The notes under the pieces: model-generated | What the model was told of the DNA's origin: nothing | Seen by the model: only the letters and a program-made list of their open reading frames with translations | The model's database searches: none | Origin: Caulifigura coniformis | GTDB taxonomy: Bacteria; Planctomycetota; Planctomycetia; Planctomycetales; Planctomycetaceae | Assembly (NCBI RefSeq): GCF_007745175.1 | Contig: NZ_CP036271.1 | Coordinates: 5,034,314-5,098,313, forward strand | DNA: 64,000 nt | Reading direction: 5' to 3' | Shown: piece by piece, positions 47,508 through 55,412 of the stretch | Layout: the number at the start of each line of letters is the position of its first letter | Position numbering within the stretch: the stretch's first letter is position 1 | Translations under genes and position numbers: made by a program

Positions 47508-49295
47508 TCACATCGGCTTCCGGCGACGGACGGTCTTGCCGTGCTGATCGTTCTGAAGTGCCTTCAGCCGCGCGGTGACGTCGTAAACCCGGAAGTAGCG
47601 CCGGGCGGGATTCTTCTGGAGACAGCGGCGGCAGAACGCATCGAGCGCGGGTGACACGTCCGAATTGAACGTCGAGGGGGCGACGGGTTCCGCTGATCGA
47701 ATTTGTTCCAGAACCTCGGCCACGGTTTCGCCGATAAAGGGCGTCCGGCCTGTCAGCAGCTCGTACAGCACCATCCCCATTCCGTAAATATCCGTCGCGA
47801 ATCCGGGTTCGGCGTCGCGTGCATCGATCTGCTCGGGGGCGAGGCGGCTCACAACCGAGGCGTGATCTACTTCCGCCCTGGGCAGCAGCGACAGGCCTCC
47901 GATCGGCGAGAGGTCGATCAGCAGCGGAATGCCGCTGGGCGCCAGGAGCACGTTGGTGCGTTTGATGTTTCCGTGAGCGACGCCCTGCCGGTGGAGATAG
48001 CCGACAACCTCCGACAGTTGCTCGACGACCTTGAGCGACTGTCTGATCGACCATCGGGACACCGTGGTCAGGTCACCCTGGGGAACATGGTCGATGACGA
48101 CGCAGCCGCGGCCATCCCACCAGCGGATGGTGAGCGGCAGGAGGATCTGGGGATGGCTCAGCGACGCCCATTGCTGCGCGGCGGCCTGCATCCGGGGCTG
48201 CCAGCTCGCTTCGGGGAGCGCGCCGTCGTGAAAGACCTTGATCGCCACGCCATGCTTCGTCGCTGTCGCCAGCCCGCGATAGACGACGCTCCTCGGGCCG
48301 CGGCCGATCTCGTCGCCAATCTGATAGCCATCCCTGGCCGCACATCGCACCAGCCGCTCGAAGGGATCGATGGCGCTGGCCGCGATGGAAACATCGCTCA
48401 GGAATCGATCGAGATCGCCCGCCAGTTCGGCGGCATCGGCGTAGCGTGCGGCGGGTGACTTCTCGAGACACTTCAGGCAGATCGTCTCGAGGTCCGCCGG
48501 TACATTGGCCAGCAACTGAGTGAGACGGACGGGCTCGGCGTGCAGCACCTGCTCGACAATCCCGATCGCCGAATCGGCGACAAACGGCGGCCGGCCTGTC
48601 AGGAGTTCGTACAGGATCGCGCCGAGCGAGTAGATATCGGCCGGCGGGCCGACTTCGTTGGCGCGTCCGGCGGCCTGTTCGGGCGCCATGTAGCTGGCCG
48701 TTCCAAGCAGGGCTCCGTCCATCGTCCAGGCGGTGCTGTTGCTGTCGAGGCGCTTCGCCAGTCCGAAGTCGGCGATCTTTGGCGTCCACGGAACCTCGGT
48801 CGTCGGAACGGACCGTTCGAGGAGGATGTTGGCCGGCTTGAGGTCGCGATGAACGATCTTCTGCTCGTGGGCCGAGTGAACAGCGAGGGCGAGGACGCTC
48901 ACCAGTGCCGCAGCATCTCGCGGTGGTTGAGATTCGCCCTTCAATTGATCGGCGAGGCTGCCCCCTTCGACGAGTTCCATCGCGAAATAAGGATGGCCCT
49001 GGTGCGATCCGACGTCGTAGACCGCGACGACATTCGGATGCTGCACGCGTGCGGCGGCTTCGGCTTCGATCTGGAAGCGTCCCCGCTCCTGAGGCCCCGC
49101 CAGGACGCTGTCGCGAATCAGCTTGAGGGCGACCAGTCGTGAAGGGCTCAGCTGCCGGGCCCGGTAGACGACGCCCATTCCGCCGCGACCGAGTTCACTG
49201 AGGACCTCGTAACCCGGGATGGCCGGCAGTGGCTCGGCGGGCGATGGACTCTCGAGCAGAGTTTGCCCTCCGCCGATTTCCGGGCGGCCGGTCAT
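47508..49295 (-). CDS. soluble Ser/Thr protein kinase with an appended pseudokinase domain
   Basis: 595 residues from the ATG at 49295 (GGAGG 8 bases upstream). First kinase domain (about 29-300): Gly loop LGRGGMGVVY, Lys58 in VALKL, HRDLKPAN 149-156, DFG 176-178, APE 204-206, all intact, so active Hanks type. A second kinase fold follows (about 324-575): Gly loop GRGPRSVVY, VAIKVF with Lys353, but HGNIKRTN in place of HRDLKxxN and DLS instead of DFG, with LAPEQ kept. The catalytic Asp and the metal Asp-Phe-Gly are therefore altered, indicating a pseudokinase. No transmembrane segment, PASTA or WD repeats. Cytosolic; partners unknown. Confidence 0.9.
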   Translation of the reverse strand: MTGRPEIGGGQTLLESPSPAEPLPAIPGYEVLSELGRGGMGVVYRARQLSPSRLVALKLIRDSVLAGPQERGRFQIEAEAAARVQHPNVVAVYDVGSHQGHPYFAMELVEGGSLADQLKGESQPPRDAAALVSVLALAVHSAHEQKIVHRDLKPANILLERSVPTTEVPWTPKIADFGLAKRLDSNSTAWTMDGALLGTASYMAPEQAAGRANEVGPPADIYSLGAILYELLTGRPPFVADSAIGIVEQVLHAEPVRLTQLLANVPADLETICLKCLEKSPAARYADAAELAGDLDRFLSDVSIAASAIDPFERLVRCAARDGYQIGDEIGRGPRSVVYRGLATATKHGVAIKVFHDGALPEASWQPRMQAAAQQWASLSHPQILLPLTIRWWDGRGCVVIDHVPQGDLTTVSRWSIRQSLKVVEQLSEVVGYLHRQGVAHGNIKRTNVLLAPSGIPLLIDLSPIGGLSLLPRAEVDHASVVSRLAPEQIDARDAEPGFATDIYGMGMVLYELLTGRTPFIGETVAEVLEQIRSAEPVAPSTFNSDVSPALDAFCRRCLQKNPARRYFRVYDVTARLKALQNDQHGKTVRRRKPM

Positions 49296-49401
49296 CGTGA
49301 ACGCCTCCACAACTTTTTCGACAGTTTCTTGCTCTGGAGGCTATGCGCCTCGATCCTGGTCGGCAAGCGTTGGAAAAGGGCCCCGCAGGAATCGCAGGCG
49401 A

Positions 49402-49845
49402 TCAGAGAAACGTCGAGAGATACAGGCCCAGAAACGCGAAGAGGATCAGGTAGCCCACGATTGATACACTCGGGACCGGCTGGCCGGTCATCGCGGCGGT
49501 CTTTCGACTGATGGGGTACACGACGAGGTACCGCACGAGGGCCGGCAGCAAGGCGAACGCCATGATGTACCTGCCGCTGTCGAAAACGCCGAAGCAATTG
49601 CAGAGCACCACGATCGTGGAGATCGCGAAAGCCCCGAGATAGGCGCCCCCGGCCGCGATGAGATAGGGCCGTACGCGCTGCCGGTCTTCATCGCTGAGCA
49701 GACAAGGTTTGCACTCGGTCGCTATTGGCGGGGCCCCTGTAATGCTCCTACAGCTTAGAGATCGTCCGTTCCGTTGAGAAACACAGTTCGTCTTCTCGCA
49801 AAATCGGGTTTCTGAGAGTCTTCCCGCCCTGACGCTCAGGTTCAT
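49402..49845 (-). CDS. small three-helix membrane protein
   Basis: 147 residues. Three transmembrane helices (YLIAAGGAYLGAFAISTIVVL, YIMAFALLPALVRYLVVYPI and VSIVGYLILFAFLGLYLST) follow a polar N-terminus with CxxC (ECKPC). The ATG at 49845 is the only normal start upstream, but the first 40 residues have weak coding character and the true start may lie further in. It is divergent from the phosphohexomutase-like gene, 17 bp apart. No family recognised. Confidence 0.5.
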   Translation of the reverse strand: MNLSVRAGRLSETRFCEKTNCVSQRNGRSLSCRSITGAPPIATECKPCLLSDEDRQRVRPYLIAAGGAYLGAFAISTIVVLCNCFGVFDSGRYIMAFALLPALVRYLVVYPISRKTAAMTGQPVPSVSIVGYLILFAFLGLYLSTFL

Positions 49846-49862: not shown

Positions 49863-51131
49863 ATGTCGGTGCGGAGCTACGTGTGTCCGGGAGAGGTGCA
49901 TCCGATCAGTCGGTCGGTTCACCTTGCGCGGCTCGCGGCCGACTATGCGAAGTGCTCGGCGTGTCCACATTGCAGCGACCTCGGCGGCATCGGGCTTCCC
50001 GTGCGGCCGGACCGTGTTGAGACGACGCTGGCTCCGGTTCTGCAGCGGGAGCGGCTGTGGCGATCGCTGCGGAGCCCGGGGGCGCGAGCCGAGATTCTTG
50101 CCTGCTGTGAGGCGCTGGCGGCGCTGTTGTGGCAGGAAACGCCCTGGGAGCTTCCGGTGAATGAATGGAACGCGGGCGAGACCTGCGGACCGACCGGGCC
50201 TCTGGTTTGCGTGGCGGCGCATCCTTCCGATGTGGCGGAATCGTTTTCGACCGAAGTCATCCGTCGGATGAGCCGCAGTGGTTGCCGCGTCGTTTCGCTT
50301 GGGGCTGTCAGTCGCGCGGCGCTCGATTTCGCGGTCGACCATCTCGAATGCTCCGCAGGAATCTGGGTGGAAGGTGGCGGCTCGCCGGCGGGGATCGGGA
50401 TTCGCGTCACGGGGCCGGCCTCGTCGGCCTGGTCGGAAGGAGGCCGGCTTGGCGGTGTAGTTGAATGGATGGACGGACGGGCGGGGCGGCCGTCACGAAT
50501 TGCCGGAGCGGTCAAGTCGTTCGAGATTCTGCCGGCCTATCGCGAGAGTCTTGTTCGTCACTACGGGCCTGTGGCGACAGAACTGGCCGCGGTCGGCATG
50601 GGGACGGTGCTGCAGTCGACCTGGTCGGGGCTCGATGCGCGAGTGGCCTGCCAATTGCGGGAAGCCTGTCCGGGAGGCCGGTGTGACGAAGCTCCTTCCG
50701 CCACCTTGCTGAGAGCGCTTCAGGAGGACGTTGTCCGGCAGCGAATGGGCGGCGGCGTGGTGTTCGGAGCCGACGGCCGCCAGGCGTGGTGGGTCGACCG
50801 CCGCGAGGGGCTGCGGACCGATCGGTTCATCGCTGAACGGTTGGCGCAGGAGCTTCGGCAGGAAACAGGCGAGCGGGAAGTGCGGGTGGTGGCGGCGGAA
50901 GAGTTGATGTGGACCGAACTCAACGCGGCAGGTGTACGGCTGGTGACCTGCGGGCCGGGAGAGGAGAAACTCGTCGACGCGATGCGGCGTCACCGGGCGC
51001 TCCTCGGTTGCGACGGCGCGGGGCGTTACTGGATTGCCAGGCCGATCCCAAGATGCGACGGGCTGCTGACGCTGGCCTATCTTTGCCGGACGGTCGCCGC
51101 CGGGGGATCCGCGCTTCAGCGGTGTGCATAG
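49863..51131 (+). CDS. degenerate phosphohexomutase-like protein with N-terminal cysteine cluster
   Basis: 422 residues. The overall layout follows the phosphoglucomutase/phosphomannomutase (alpha-D-phosphohexomutase) fold, but the diagnostic sites are altered. The phosphoserine loop (normally TASHNP) is replaced around residue 173 by EGGGSPAGIGIRVTG, lacking the Ser-His pair. The metal loop (normally DGDxDR) appears as FGADGRQAWWVD. The C-terminal sugar and phosphate region (CDGAGRYWI, then CDGLLTLAYLCRTVAAGG) is recognisable. The N-terminus adds a cysteine-rich segment, CSACPHC, around residue 31. It is therefore unlikely to be a normal mutase and may be a pseudoenzyme or regulator. It ends 13 bp before the convergent MarR gene. 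Confidence 0.55.
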   Translation: MSVRSYVCPGEVHPISRSVHLARLAADYAKCSACPHCSDLGGIGLPVRPDRVETTLAPVLQRERLWRSLRSPGARAEILACCEALAALLWQETPWELPVNEWNAGETCGPTGPLVCVAAHPSDVAESFSTEVIRRMSRSGCRVVSLGAVSRAALDFAVDHLECSAGIWVEGGGSPAGIGIRVTGPASSAWSEGGRLGGVVEWMDGRAGRPSRIAGAVKSFEILPAYRESLVRHYGPVATELAAVGMGTVLQSTWSGLDARVACQLREACPGGRCDEAPSATLLRALQEDVVRQRMGGGVVFGADGRQAWWVDRREGLRTDRFIAERLAQELRQETGEREVRVVAAEELMWTELNAAGVRLVTCGPGEEKLVDAMRRHRALLGCDGAGRYWIARPIPRCDGLLTLAYLCRTVAAGGSALQRCA

Positions 51132-51144
51132 CGCCGCCGGAATT

Positions 51145-51681
51145 TCAACCAGCCGAATGAGCCAGTTCGAGGATCGAGCTTTCGGATTCCGTTGGTTCCG
51201 ACAAGGATTCGGCCTTCGCGTTTGCGGCGGGCATGTTGATGTCGGAGTCGTCGCCGAGGTTCCTGCGGATCCGCTCGCAGTACTGCTTCATGAGCCGGCA
51301 CTCTTCCGGGGAAAAGCCGGTCAGCGCCTGGTTCCGGACTTCGCGACACCAGTCGACGGCCCGGGTCCAGACGGCATGTCCCCGTTCCGTGGGGAGAATC
51401 GAATAGCGGCGACGATCGGTGGATGAGGCGACGCGCCTCACCCAGCCGTCTCGCTCCATGCGGCTGATGATGCCTGTCAGCGTGTGGGGCTCGATTCCCA
51501 GGCACTCTGCGATCTCGGCCTGCGAAGAGTTCTGACGTTGAGAGAGGCAGGCGAGGACTTCCCACTGACGAAGCGTCATCCGTTCCTGCGCGAGGCGGTT
51601 GCTCAAGGCGCGTCGGATCGCATGCGAGGTCGTGCAGATCCAGTAGCCAACGCTGTTTTCCCAGTCGTATTCGAGCACCAT
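51145..51681 (-). CDS. MarR-family transcriptional regulator
   Basis: 178 residues. Winged helix with SQAEIAECLGIEPHTLTGIISRMERDGWVRRVASSTDRRRYSILPTERG: recognition helix followed by the DxRxxxxxLT-type wing. The C-terminal helix forms the dimer. A 30-residue Ser/Glu/Ala-rich tail is an extra. It lies 132 bp downstream of a sulfatase gene on the same strand; its target genes are unknown. Confidence 0.9.
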   Translation of the reverse strand: MVLEYDWENSVGYWICTTSHAIRRALSNRLAQERMTLRQWEVLACLSQRQNSSQAEIAECLGIEPHTLTGIISRMERDGWVRRVASSTDRRRYSILPTERGHAVWTRAVDWCREVRNQALTGFSPEECRLMKQYCERIRRNLGDDSDINMPAANAKAESLSEPTESESSILELAHSAG

Positions 51682-51813: not shown

Positions 51814-53463
51814 TCAGTTAGCACGCCGCCGGCGGTTGGGCTGCTGCACGTCGCCGGGCAGGGGGCCCGCCAAGGGCGGCGACTCGAAGAATCGACCGTC
51901 CTCTTTCACGCGCGGATCCCCCGATCGCTCGAGTTCCCCCATCAGCTGTCGCCGCAGGTCAGCGACCTGCGATTGATAGGCCGGATCCGCGGCCAGGTTG
52001 TTCATCTGATCGGGATCGTTACGGAGTTCATAGAGCTCTTCACGGGGACGCAGCCCGTAGGTGTGCTCGTAGAAGGGCTTCCACTGCGGGTCGTCGCGAT
52101 GTGAAACCAGCCAGGCTTTAGTCAGCCCGGCATCGTCATCGGGAAACGCGACGAAGGTCTCGTTCTCGAGGTCCCTGAACGATGGCGGAGTACCGGAGGC
52201 GACCTCGAGCGGATCGCCGAGCGGCCTGCGCTCGGGATGGAAGTTGATGATGAACAGGTGGTTCGCGGTTCGGATGGCTCGCTGTGGATAGGGGAGAAAA
52301 CCTTCGCGCGCCATCTCGACGTGGCGCTCGCGACCGATATAGACGGCGTCCCTGGCGGGATCGACCTGGCCCGACGCGCTCGATCGCAACACGGGCCACA
52401 AGCTGCGGGCCGTCATGACGGCCGGCGGGGTTCCGCCTCCGGCTTCCACGAACGTCGGCGCCAGGTCGGGGATCGAGACAAAGTCGTCGACCACGCGGCC
52501 ACCTGCGACGCCGGGGCCCGCGATTGCGAGGCTGACGCGGGTGCCGAAGTCGTACAGGTTGCATTTGCCGTGTGGAAACCCGGGCGCGCCGTGGTCGCCG
52601 CTGATGGCGATGAGGGTGTTCTCGGCCTCGCCGGTTTTCTGCAGTTCGTCGAGCAGGATGCCAATCATGGCATCGAGCGCCTGCGCCTCGCCGAGGTAGT
52701 CGGCCAGATCCTCACGGACTTCGGGGACGTCTGGCAGGAACTTCGGAAGCTTCCCCTTCAGGCTGTCGGGTTCGAGTCCCCAGATCGCCTTGCCGGACCC
52801 CCGCTTCCATTTGCGATGTGTGTTCGTCGTTCCGAACCAGTAGGCGAACGGCCTGGCCGGGTCGCGCTTCGCGAGGAACGCCTGGAAGTTCTCCCGCACG
52901 TTGGAGAGCACGGCCTGCTTCGCGTCTTCGACCGGAGTTCCGTTCGCGACCGCAGCCGTGACCGTTTCGGAAAAGCTCGAGACCTGCCCCGCTCCCTTGT
53001 CGAAGGCGTACTCCTTCCCGCCGTAGGGGGCATCGACAGGCGAGCCCGGGCTCCAGACCTTATACGTTTTGCCGAGGTTGTATCCGGCGTCACGAAGAAG
53101 CAATGGCCAGGATGGAATCGTGGAATCCCAGACGGCCCCCCGCAGGATGGCGCCCCGTCCAGTCCTCCAGAAGTACTGGCCGGACATGAACGAACTGCGG
53201 CAGGGAGTGCAGGACGGAGAGTTGACGAACGCATTGCGGAACAGGACTCCCTGTTTTGCGACGCGGTCGAAGTGCGGCGTCTGCACGATGTCGTTGATTC
53301 CGCCTGGTTCGAGCTTCGCGTACGCGCTCGCGTGCCGGCCCCAGTCGTCGGCGAAGATCATGAGGATGTTGGGGCGTTTGCCTTCGGCCGCCGGCGCGGT
53401 CGCGCAGACCAGCGTGAGGAGAGCGAACATCACCCCCTGCAGCCGCGATGACATCGTGAACAT
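51814..53463 (-). CDS. secreted sulfatase (formylglycine type)
   Basis: 549 residues. Signal peptide ending near residue 27 (FALLTLVCATAPAAEG). Metal-binding PNILMIFADDWG follows, then the formylglycine site CTPCR (Cys85 to Arg89, form CxPCR). ISGDHGAPGFPHGK supplies further active-site residues. Removes sulfate esters from a carbohydrate or aryl substrate outside the cytoplasm after maturation of the Cys by a formylglycine-generating enzyme, which is not in the window. The start at 53463 has GGAA 9 bases upstream; the frame is open to 53565. It follows the other sulfatase on the same strand, 147 bp apart. Confidence 0.93.
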   Translation of the reverse strand: MFTMSSRLQGVMFALLTLVCATAPAAEGKRPNILMIFADDWGRHASAYAKLEPGGINDIVQTPHFDRVAKQGVLFRNAFVNSPSCTPCRSSFMSGQYFWRTGRGAILRGAVWDSTIPSWPLLLRDAGYNLGKTYKVWSPGSPVDAPYGGKEYAFDKGAGQVSSFSETVTAAVANGTPVEDAKQAVLSNVRENFQAFLAKRDPARPFAYWFGTTNTHRKWKRGSGKAIWGLEPDSLKGKLPKFLPDVPEVREDLADYLGEAQALDAMIGILLDELQKTGEAENTLIAISGDHGAPGFPHGKCNLYDFGTRVSLAIAGPGVAGGRVVDDFVSIPDLAPTFVEAGGGTPPAVMTARSLWPVLRSSASGQVDPARDAVYIGRERHVEMAREGFLPYPQRAIRTANHLFIINFHPERRPLGDPLEVASGTPPSFRDLENETFVAFPDDDAGLTKAWLVSHRDDPQWKPFYEHTYGLRPREELYELRNDPDQMNNLAADPAYQSQVADLRRQLMGELERSGDPRVKEDGRFFESPPLAGPLPGDVQQPNRRRRAN

Positions 53464-53510
53464 GAGGTCTGTTCCAGAGAGGTTTGAAGTCCAGTGGATT
53501 AAACGTATGG

Positions 53511-53521
53511 AAGCCCGGCTT
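53511..53521. repeat. intergenic AAGCCCGGCTT hairpin
   Basis: GGAAGC-CCG-GCTTCC gives a 6-bp stem in the gap between the two sulfatase genes. Same core as at 609-619 and 43376-43386. Confidence 0.45.
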
Positions 53522-53610
53522 CCTGAGAGGGATTGTGTCTGTCCACCTGAAGGCAAGGACTGCAAGCCGAGGACATACCGGGCTGTTGGCGATCAAGGAC
53601 CGGCGACCGT

Positions 53611-55053
53611 TCAAGGAGCCTTTCTTCCGGCCCGTTTTCGTGCCTGCGGATCGCCGCTGATCGCGTCCGGCCCGAAGCTCGTCGGATCAGTCAGCAGACG
53701 CGGCTCGCCGAACACGGTCTGCTGGTCGCCCTGGCTGGTCATCCACTCATCAAGCTGCCTGCGAAGGCGGTCGAGGGCCTCTTTGCCGCGGGGATCTTCC
53801 ACCAGGTTCTGCTGCTCCAGCGGATCGGCATCGAGGTCGAACAGTTCCTCGGCGGGACGCAGATGGTAGCGCTTGATGGCGGCAGCCGCCGCGGGATCGG
53901 TTTCCGCGGCTTTCTGCCACGACTCGAAATAGGTCCTATTGCCCTGCCGATCCGGAAGGTCGACGTGGCTGGTAAAGGCGAACTCCGGATGCAGGTTGCG
54001 GATGTATTTCCAGCGGCCGACGCGGACGCCGCGCTGCGGATAGACGTTCCAGTTCCCGTCGCCACTGTGCGTCGTGAAGATCGCGTCGCGGTGCGCGTCC
54101 GCGGTCCCCTTGAGAACGCCGACGAATGAACGCCCGTCGATGGCGTCGGACGGCGCGCCGCCGGCGACGGAAACCAGCGTCGGCAGCAGGTCGATCCAAC
54201 TCACCATCGCGGAGGTACGGCTTGCGGCTTTCGTCACGCCCGGCCACGACACGATCAGCGGAACGCGGACACCCCCTTCGTAGCAGTTCCATTTTCCGAA
54301 TGGCCACTGGGAGCCGTGGTCGCTCGTGAATGCGATCAATGCCTGGTCCCCGAGCACCTCACGGACGGCAGACATTACGAGGCCCAGATCGCGGTCGGCC
54401 CGTGTGACCGCCGCCGCATAGCGGGCCCGGGCCAGACGCGACGCATGCGTGTCGACGTTGCCCGGCGCCGGCGGAATGGTTTCCGGATCGTAGCCCTCGG
54501 GAGTGTCGGGCCACGGGACATGCGGCCAGTTCGTCCCGACCAGCAGGCACAGCGGCTTCGAGCCCTTCCCGCGATTGCGGAGGAACTTCACCGCTTCCGG
54601 GATGGCGATGTCCTCGTGGAACTTGTCGTGGGCAAACGAGTCGAACCCGTAGTCGATCGTGTGCCTGTAGTGCGAGACCTTGCCATAGGCCACCACTTCA
54701 TAACCCAGCTCCTGAAAATAGGCGGGCCACTTGCGGATCTCCGCTTTCGGCCTGCTGTGATTAGCCTCCGAGCCGTTCCGGGCGGGCATCAGGCCAGTGA
54801 GCAGGGCGGCCCGGCTGGGGGCGCAACTGGGGGAAGCGACATAGGCGTTTTCAAAGGTCAGGCCCGCGTCCGCCAGGGCCTGGAGGTTGGGTGTCCGGAA
54901 CGCCTTGGCCCCGTACGGAGAAATGTCTCGCTGGGAGAGGTCGTCGGCGATGAACAGCACGATGTCGGGAGCGGCCACGGCCGGCGCGGCGAACCCGCAC
55001 ACGACGAGCAGCAGGAGCAGGGGGAGAGATCTCGAACCGAGCGGGAGTTTCAT
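53611..55053 (-). CDS. secreted sulfatase (formylglycine type)
   Basis: 480 residues. Signal peptide to about residue 28 (LPLLLLLVVCGFAAPAVA). The metal site PDIVLFIADDLS and the formylglycine motif CAPSR (Cys77 to Arg81, classical CxPSR) are intact, and the second active-site loop is FTSDHGSQWPFGKW. Form and length fit iduronate-2-sulfatase-like members of family S1, but the substrate cannot be read from sequence. Differs from the neighbour in its FGly motif (CAPSR against CTPCR), so the pair are not recent duplicates. Probably the first gene of the sulfatase pair. Confidence 0.95.
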   Translation of the reverse strand: MKLPLGSRSLPLLLLLVVCGFAAPAVAAPDIVLFIADDLSQRDISPYGAKAFRTPNLQALADAGLTFENAYVASPSCAPSRAALLTGLMPARNGSEANHSRPKAEIRKWPAYFQELGYEVVAYGKVSHYRHTIDYGFDSFAHDKFHEDIAIPEAVKFLRNRGKGSKPLCLLVGTNWPHVPWPDTPEGYDPETIPPAPGNVDTHASRLARARYAAAVTRADRDLGLVMSAVREVLGDQALIAFTSDHGSQWPFGKWNCYEGGVRVPLIVSWPGVTKAASRTSAMVSWIDLLPTLVSVAGGAPSDAIDGRSFVGVLKGTADAHRDAIFTTHSGDGNWNVYPQRGVRVGRWKYIRNLHPEFAFTSHVDLPDRQGNRTYFESWQKAAETDPAAAAAIKRYHLRPAEELFDLDADPLEQQNLVEDPRGKEALDRLRRQLDEWMTSQGDQQTVFGEPRLLTDPTSFGPDAISGDPQARKRAGRKAP

Positions 55054-55412
55054 CGGAGCGCATTCCACGAGGCAGGAACCGGAGAAGAAAACTGTAACCC
55101 GCCGGGAACCGTGGCGGCACTGTCAGCCGGGGAGACGCGGCTCCTCAATGACAAACGGCTTCCGGGGGATGCGAGCGTTGCGAGCGGTGAGTGATTTTTT
55201 CCAAAAACGAATGATGCCGCGAGAATTCATTCAAGAATCAGGGTTTACGAGGGCTTCAAGCGGCAACATCGTCTTGACCCGTTTTTCGAGGATGGCGTAG
55301 TTTCCCGGCCCTGTCGGCCCGGGGTGCGCGGCGTGACTATGGAAGGTCTGCGCCTCTGGCCCTGGGACACATTTTCCGGTTTGACCTGCCTTCGCGTCGC
55401 AAAACGATCGGC
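55054..55412. promoter_or_regulatory. 359-bp gap upstream of the exopolysaccharide block, with candidate promoter
   Basis: Divergent spacer between the sulfatases and the polysaccharide genes. TTGACC at 55274-55279 and TAGTTT at 55298-55303 are 18 bases apart and point toward the Wza-like gene, about 110 bases upstream of its start. An AT-rich patch at 55195-55245 lies before it. No gene is seen inside. Confidence 0.35.

Follow-up and report, generated by a model that had tools for sequence, protein, structure and literature searches.

A degenerate phosphohexomutase with a candidate N-terminal metal module in Caulifigura coniformis and related Planctomycetota

Introduction

The closest described relatives of the protein reported here are the phosphomannomutase/phosphoglucomutases (PMM/PGM) and GlmM. 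In the PMM/PGM of Pseudomonas aeruginosa, domain 4 comprises residues 369-463 (PMC3369874). The phosphohexomutase (PHM) superfamily also includes a non-enzyme, the vertebrate pseudo-phosphoglucomutase PGM5 (aciculin), which is devoid of mutase activity and retains phosphoserine, metal and substrate binding (PMC7761743). In Bacillus subtilis the engineered truncation GlmM-F369, a three-domain PHM without domain 4, acts by binding a protein, CdaA (PMC8573169); GlmM in its natural form has mutase activity and bears no metal module. A literature search found neither a planctomycete pseudo-PHM nor a zinc-bearing PMM.

In this study, we report an open reading frame from a 64,000-nucleotide stretch of C. 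coniformis DNA (hereafter the window) whose product shares with PMM/PGM and GlmM the fold of domains I-III, the order of the loops and significant homology, but differs from them in the loss of the phosphoserine loop, the DGDxDR motif, the sugar loop and domain IV, and in the addition of a putative metal module (Table 1). It resembles PGM5 in being a PHM-superfamily protein that is predicted not to be an enzyme. Unlike PGM5, however, it has lost the loops and domain IV, is bacterial and is of separate origin. With GlmM-F369 it has in common the three-domain architecture, which in that case was engineered. Active PMM/PGMs of other planctomycete classes (L230-L233, L276-L284, L286, L287) carry a module of the same spacing on the same PHM body, but their active-site motifs and domain IV are intact and ligand 2 of their module is Cys.

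Table 1. Features of the pseudoenzyme gene and of the related fusion loci.
Feature	Position	Strand	Remarks
Degenerate PHM with putative N-terminal metal module, CDS	49863..51131	+	422 aa + stop, frame intact
N-terminal 'CPGE' module, residues 6-40, C-x11-H-x2-R-x7-C-x2-C	49878..49982	+	99/99 body-selected members; phylum-wide recurrences
C8, proposed metal ligand 1	49884..49886	+	Invariant
H20, proposed metal ligand 2	49920..49922	+	Alignments; Cys in the modules of other classes
R23, invariant Arg between ligands	49929..49931	+	Alignments
C31, proposed metal ligand 3	49953..49955	+	Invariant
C34, proposed metal ligand 4	49962..49964	+	Invariant
C37, third Cys of CxxCxxC, non-conserved	49971..49973	+	Cys in 2/91, usually Arg
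PHM domains I-III, residues 56-418	50028..51116	+	VIA-align to 9du5_A and 4il8
Degenerate phosphoserine loop, VEGGGSPAG at residues 169-177 (TASHNP in the enzymes)	50367..50393	+	Family alignment
Degenerate metal loop, FGADGRQ at residues 301-307 (DGDxDR in the enzymes)	50763..50783	+	Family alignment
f64 module-PMM fusion loci with epimerase/FMN reductase			L238-L241, L248, L249, L254, L256, L257, L259, L268

Results

Taken alone, the window protein matched the Pfam PHM domains only below threshold, and its NCBIfam match (Arch_GlmM, E 2.8e-9) lay far below the cut-off of that model. Its membership of the superfamily was settled by the domain matches of its relatives, which were found in 36 of 59 related genomes, and by profile-profile comparison. 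All 27 members of alignment A1 contained domain I (PGM_PMM_I; Pfam, best E 4e-21), and the pseudoenzyme family matched a set of 15 intact GlmM-type proteins with 99.9% probability (E 2.9e-33). An AlphaFold2 model of the window protein built with 51 homologues (mean pLDDT 88.1, pTM 0.82) returned only phosphohexomutases as top Foldseek matches (5bmp, E 3.4e-23). VIA-align placed 337 residues of 9du5_A on model residues 58-418 (Z 35.6), and 336 residues of the P. aeruginosa PMM/PGM 4il8 (Z 35.4), with model residues 56-418 set against enzyme residues 10-362. Since this last match ends at residue 362 and domain 4 of the enzyme runs from residue 369, the window protein stops at the point where domain IV would begin. 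Homology and the predicted fold of domains I-III thus place it by descent in the alpha-D-phosphohexomutase superfamily. An earlier note, made from the letters of the window, had discerned the outline of this fold and had named a failure to match it as the result that would count against the reading; the profile-profile search, the model and the structural matches all agree on a PHM fold.

The catalytic positions were counted in 91 distinct pseudoenzyme members, picked by a regular expression requiring the module ligands and aligned with 15 intact proteins, all 15 of which carry TASHNP and DPDADR. The column of the catalytic Ser holds Ala in 36 members, Ser in 24, His in 10 and Gly in 7; the aligned Ser of those 24 stands in a context unlike TASHNP, and the His that follows it in the enzymes is missing from the eight residues most often seen at that position in the 91 members. 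Likewise, the third Asp of the metal loop does not figure among the eight most frequent residues of its column in this set; Gln, Arg, Glu and Ala, among others, take its place. The two other acidic positions of the loop are Asp in 68 and 81 of the 91 members, respectively, and the window protein retains only one of the two. The Glu of the sugar loop (GExSGH or GGEGNGG in the enzymes) is left in 3/91, and the window protein reads CDGAGR at this site. The alignment shows gaps where domain IV would lie in 88-89 of the 91 members, and PF00408, which represents this domain with its phosphate-binding R-x-S-x-T-E-P, was matched by 0 of 27 members. Some residues conserved in the superfamily persist, e.g., D399. 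Decay has gone further in the window lineage than in most members, and this lineage lies on a long branch shared with its sister species.

As judged from the alignment and the model, all four PHM catalytic elements are changed or absent across the family and not by local accident, and its members presumably lack mutase activity; residual phosphotransfer is formally conceivable in the lineages that retain the Ser (24/91). The replacement of TASHNP by an EGGGSPAG loop and of DGDxDR by GADGRQ, both of which the earlier note had read in the window protein, is seen in the alignment. Its naming of the protein as a PHM-like pseudoenzyme agrees with the profile-profile comparison, the structure prediction and the family-wide alignment. 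Retention of the phosphoserine loop by homologues, which it had cited as contrary evidence, was not what the family showed, the His being gone and the Ser surviving only as described above. The loss of the whole of domain IV had escaped it.

A profile search of 397 genomes of the class located the pseudoenzyme in about 119 of the 124 genomes of the same planctomycete family, a clear member being taken as a match with E 1e-38 or lower or one taking in the N-terminal module; the five doubtful genomes are fragmented assemblies. The dN/dS ratio ranged from 0.04 to 0.17 in 16 closely related pairs, and by this measure the gene is kept under strong selection. Loss of catalytic residues and purifying selection are thus combined in these sequences, as in a pseudoenzyme. 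The pseudoenzymes are monophyletic (support 100/99), and the named matches are all planctomycetes, including Gimesia, Schlesneria and Planctomicrobium MAGs, save for a few records titled only 'bacterium'. The viral contigs searched contained no relatives, and a viral origin or carriage was rejected on that account.

The exact spacing C8-x11-H20-x2-R23-x7-C31-x2-C34 was found in 99/99 complete members that lack TASHNP and had been chosen by the PHM body alone (residue 106 onward). This is the unbiased count, because the 91-member set had the ligands as a requirement. Only two body-selected members were without the module, both of them cut by contig ends. When the window protein was shuffled 20000 times, the same five-residue spacing arose twice. 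At ligand 2, all 91 distinct pseudoenzyme modules of the Planctomycetia have His, and the modules from other classes have Cys; in its four conserved Cys/His ligands and this His/Cys exchange the module shares a feature of zinc-finger/ribbon families. Ligand invariance, together with the exchange, which is what would be expected of one of the four ligands of a metal site, makes the module very likely a metal site, and the metal is most likely a single structural ion, Zn(II).

The CxxCxxC segment as such was ruled out as the metal site, given that C37 is rarely Cys. The suggestion in the earlier note that an N-terminal CSACPHC could bind a metal therefore stands in part: the segment is present and a metal-type module is supported, with C31 and C34 invariant among the planctomycete homologues, but CxxCxxC is not the unit, its third Cys is not conserved, and C8 and H20 had been overlooked. 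The module had no clear match in Pfam and no meaningful one in NCBIfam; against PDB sequences its best E was 0.26, and one of 27 full-length members matched PF16827 (zf-HC3) somewhere along its length (E 0.0016). Modelled alone, the module gave a small structure (46 residues) of moderate confidence (pLDDT 74) that found no usable Foldseek match (best E 4.2).

A search of 40 close genomes brought up no further module copy at E 0.009 or better, which suggested that it was peculiar to the gene under study; this was overturned by phylum-wide searches. The first module profile gave matches in 14/109 genomes of the phylum and the profile with four-Cys forms added gave matches in 82/392, some of them weak, and the spacing was identical throughout. 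The module is fused to PMM/PGMs in families f64, f95, f113, f117 and f118 (21 distinct fusions), in which TASHNP, DGDADR and GE-SGH are intact save for single-residue variants and domain IV is present. In f65 (L242, L243) and f51 (L289) it is encoded on its own, in a small ORF that immediately precedes a PMM/PGM gene on the same strand, and short module ORFs devoid of a PHM body occur at L244 and L245. It was not found at 15 loci of active GlmM-type proteins, nor at the PMM locus of the C. coniformis genome. A second degenerate PHM with a four-Cys module and a decayed domain IV was detected in f112 (L285:2182-4005, +); it sits among the active fusions in the tree, although in a single genome and on a long branch, and seems to have lost catalysis independently, in another class.

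In the tree of PHM bodies the pseudoenzymes and the GlmM-type proteins each form a block, and a third block holds the PMM/PGMs, among them every active one that bears the module. Profile scores put the pseudoenzymes closer to PMM/PGM (E about 1e-60) than to the GlmM type (E 1e-36 to 1e-40). A single joining of module and PHM, followed by loss from module-free PMMs, and two separate joinings are both compatible with this unrooted, long-branched tree.

Other occurrences of the module were recorded. In f113 it heads giant proteins (L291:7004-15262, +, and L292:4029-8999, +), of which the one scanned, L291, consists of PEGA repeats. Partial, weak matches to its second half were obtained at L293:1203-1454 (-) and in similar short ORFs of f49 and f90; all of these possibly represent a further variant with other spacing. 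At about ten loci of f64 the module-PMM fusion follows, on the same strand, genes for an NAD-dependent epimerase and an FMN reductase. By eye, we take this epimerase to be UDP-xylose-synthase-like, and these neighbours would fit nucleotide-sugar metabolism for the active fusion form.

With respect to genomic context, holA (DNA polymerase III delta) is the divergent neighbour in 17 of the 34 loci with a detected member and is commoner there than any other gene; it is not adjacent in the window or in the sister species. In the window, 17 bp separate the ATG of the pseudoenzyme from that of a divergent 147-aa ORF (49402-49845, -) with three hydrophobic stretches and a CKPC at residues 45-48, and no ATG, GTG or TTG start lies closer to this CKPC. 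The 17-bp spacing to a small membrane protein, as given in the earlier note, is correct; its CxxC, however, is not N-terminal, and the pairing is not conserved. A functional link between the two was rejected, as a search of 39 other genomes, that of the sister species among them, gave no match to the ORF. The window also contains a Ser/Thr protein kinase with two tandem kinase domains (47508-49310, -), two adjoining sulfatases of the arylsulfatase/choline-sulfatase type (51814-55068, -) and, near these, a MarR-type regulator (51145-51681, -). The genome of C. coniformis encodes one intact PHM, of the PMM/PGM type (C1:3378207-3379727), and no GlmM-type protein above the cut-off; most of its relatives have two or three PHMs.

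Discussion

On balance, we favour the view that the window protein is a non-catalytic PMM/PGM-type paralogue that combines the PHM fold with a metal module and acts by binding in sugar-phosphate metabolism. By sequence and model, this paralogue has kept the fold of domains I-III and its four catalytic loops are altered or lost; its compact N-terminal module would hold one structural metal through C8, H20, C31 and C34. In the Planctomycetia, catalysis would be left to module-free PHMs, and since the paralogue has kept both module and fold, it most likely acts by binding. It might regulate, as a partner, an active PHM or another sugar-phosphate enzyme or, alternatively, serve as a phosphosugar-sensing adaptor, and the metal module could provide the contact surface for the partner. 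The regulatory role, like metal binding and the lack of activity, is inferred. A fixed partner is made less plausible by the fact that no single active PHM type accompanies the pseudoenzyme in all genomes, and the recurrence of holA points to no sugar pathway, which counts against a role in sugar-phosphate metabolism. More tentatively, and with some doubt, the module may be a phylum-specific regulator of PHMs that acts mostly in cis, fused or adjacent, and that in the Planctomycetia was placed by duplication on a dead paralogue regulating a module-free enzyme in trans.

A different binding role, by analogy with B. subtilis GlmM acting on CdaA, would make the protein a trans inhibitor of a diadenylate cyclase, in which a dimer of domains I-III blocks the cyclase and the metal module tunes the effect. 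Removal of domain 4 leaves GlmM able to bind and inhibit CdaA (PMC8573169), so that a three-domain PHM can do so, and such truncated GlmM structures (7olh, 7ojs) are among the structural matches of the model; all PHMs, however, match it about equally well. A DAC domain is present in 40/41 genomes of the family, including that of C. coniformis, which permits such a role and does not support it. DAC genes are common in many bacteria, and no linkage to the pseudoenzyme gene was seen. We regard this explanation as unlikely. Quite improbable as well is an enzyme of altered chemistry, with a phosphosugar bound in the cleft and the N-terminal metal joining in catalysis. The mostly conserved metal-loop acidic residues (68/91 and 81/91), D399 and the strong purifying selection would agree with it, but of the two Asp the window protein has just one, the family conserves no nucleophile, and the domain that closes the site, domain IV, is missing; moreover, the presence of the module on intact PHMs argues that it is not a replacement catalytic centre.

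The frequency of holA next to the gene and the invariant Arg between the ligands could also be read as signs of a protein linked to nucleic acids or replication, whose module binds DNA, RNA or a replication protein. Yet holA is transcribed in the opposite direction and is not adjacent in the window or the sister species; nor was it found near the module-bearing PMMs of other classes, those of f64 adjoining the epimerase and FMN reductase genes instead, and we consider such a role very unlikely. That the protein is the product of a decaying pseudogene or an annotation artefact, as low identity across the family (20-30%) and the extra decay of the window lineage might suggest, is scarcely credible in view of the open frames throughout, the occurrence in about 119/124 genomes, the exact motif in 99/99 members and a selection test (dN/dS 0.04-0.17) that contradicts it for the family.

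Under the favoured reading of a non-catalytic paralogue acting by binding, what is new is the family-wide retention of a dead PHM together with a small, phylum-wide module that is found on active, adjacent and dead PHMs. The PHM-superfamily pseudoenzyme found in the literature consulted is the vertebrate PGM5; the window protein would be a bacterial one, near-universal in its family. As the module is carried, depending on the lineage, by an active enzyme, by an ORF next to one or by a degenerate enzyme, its role should be directly testable by swap and deletion.
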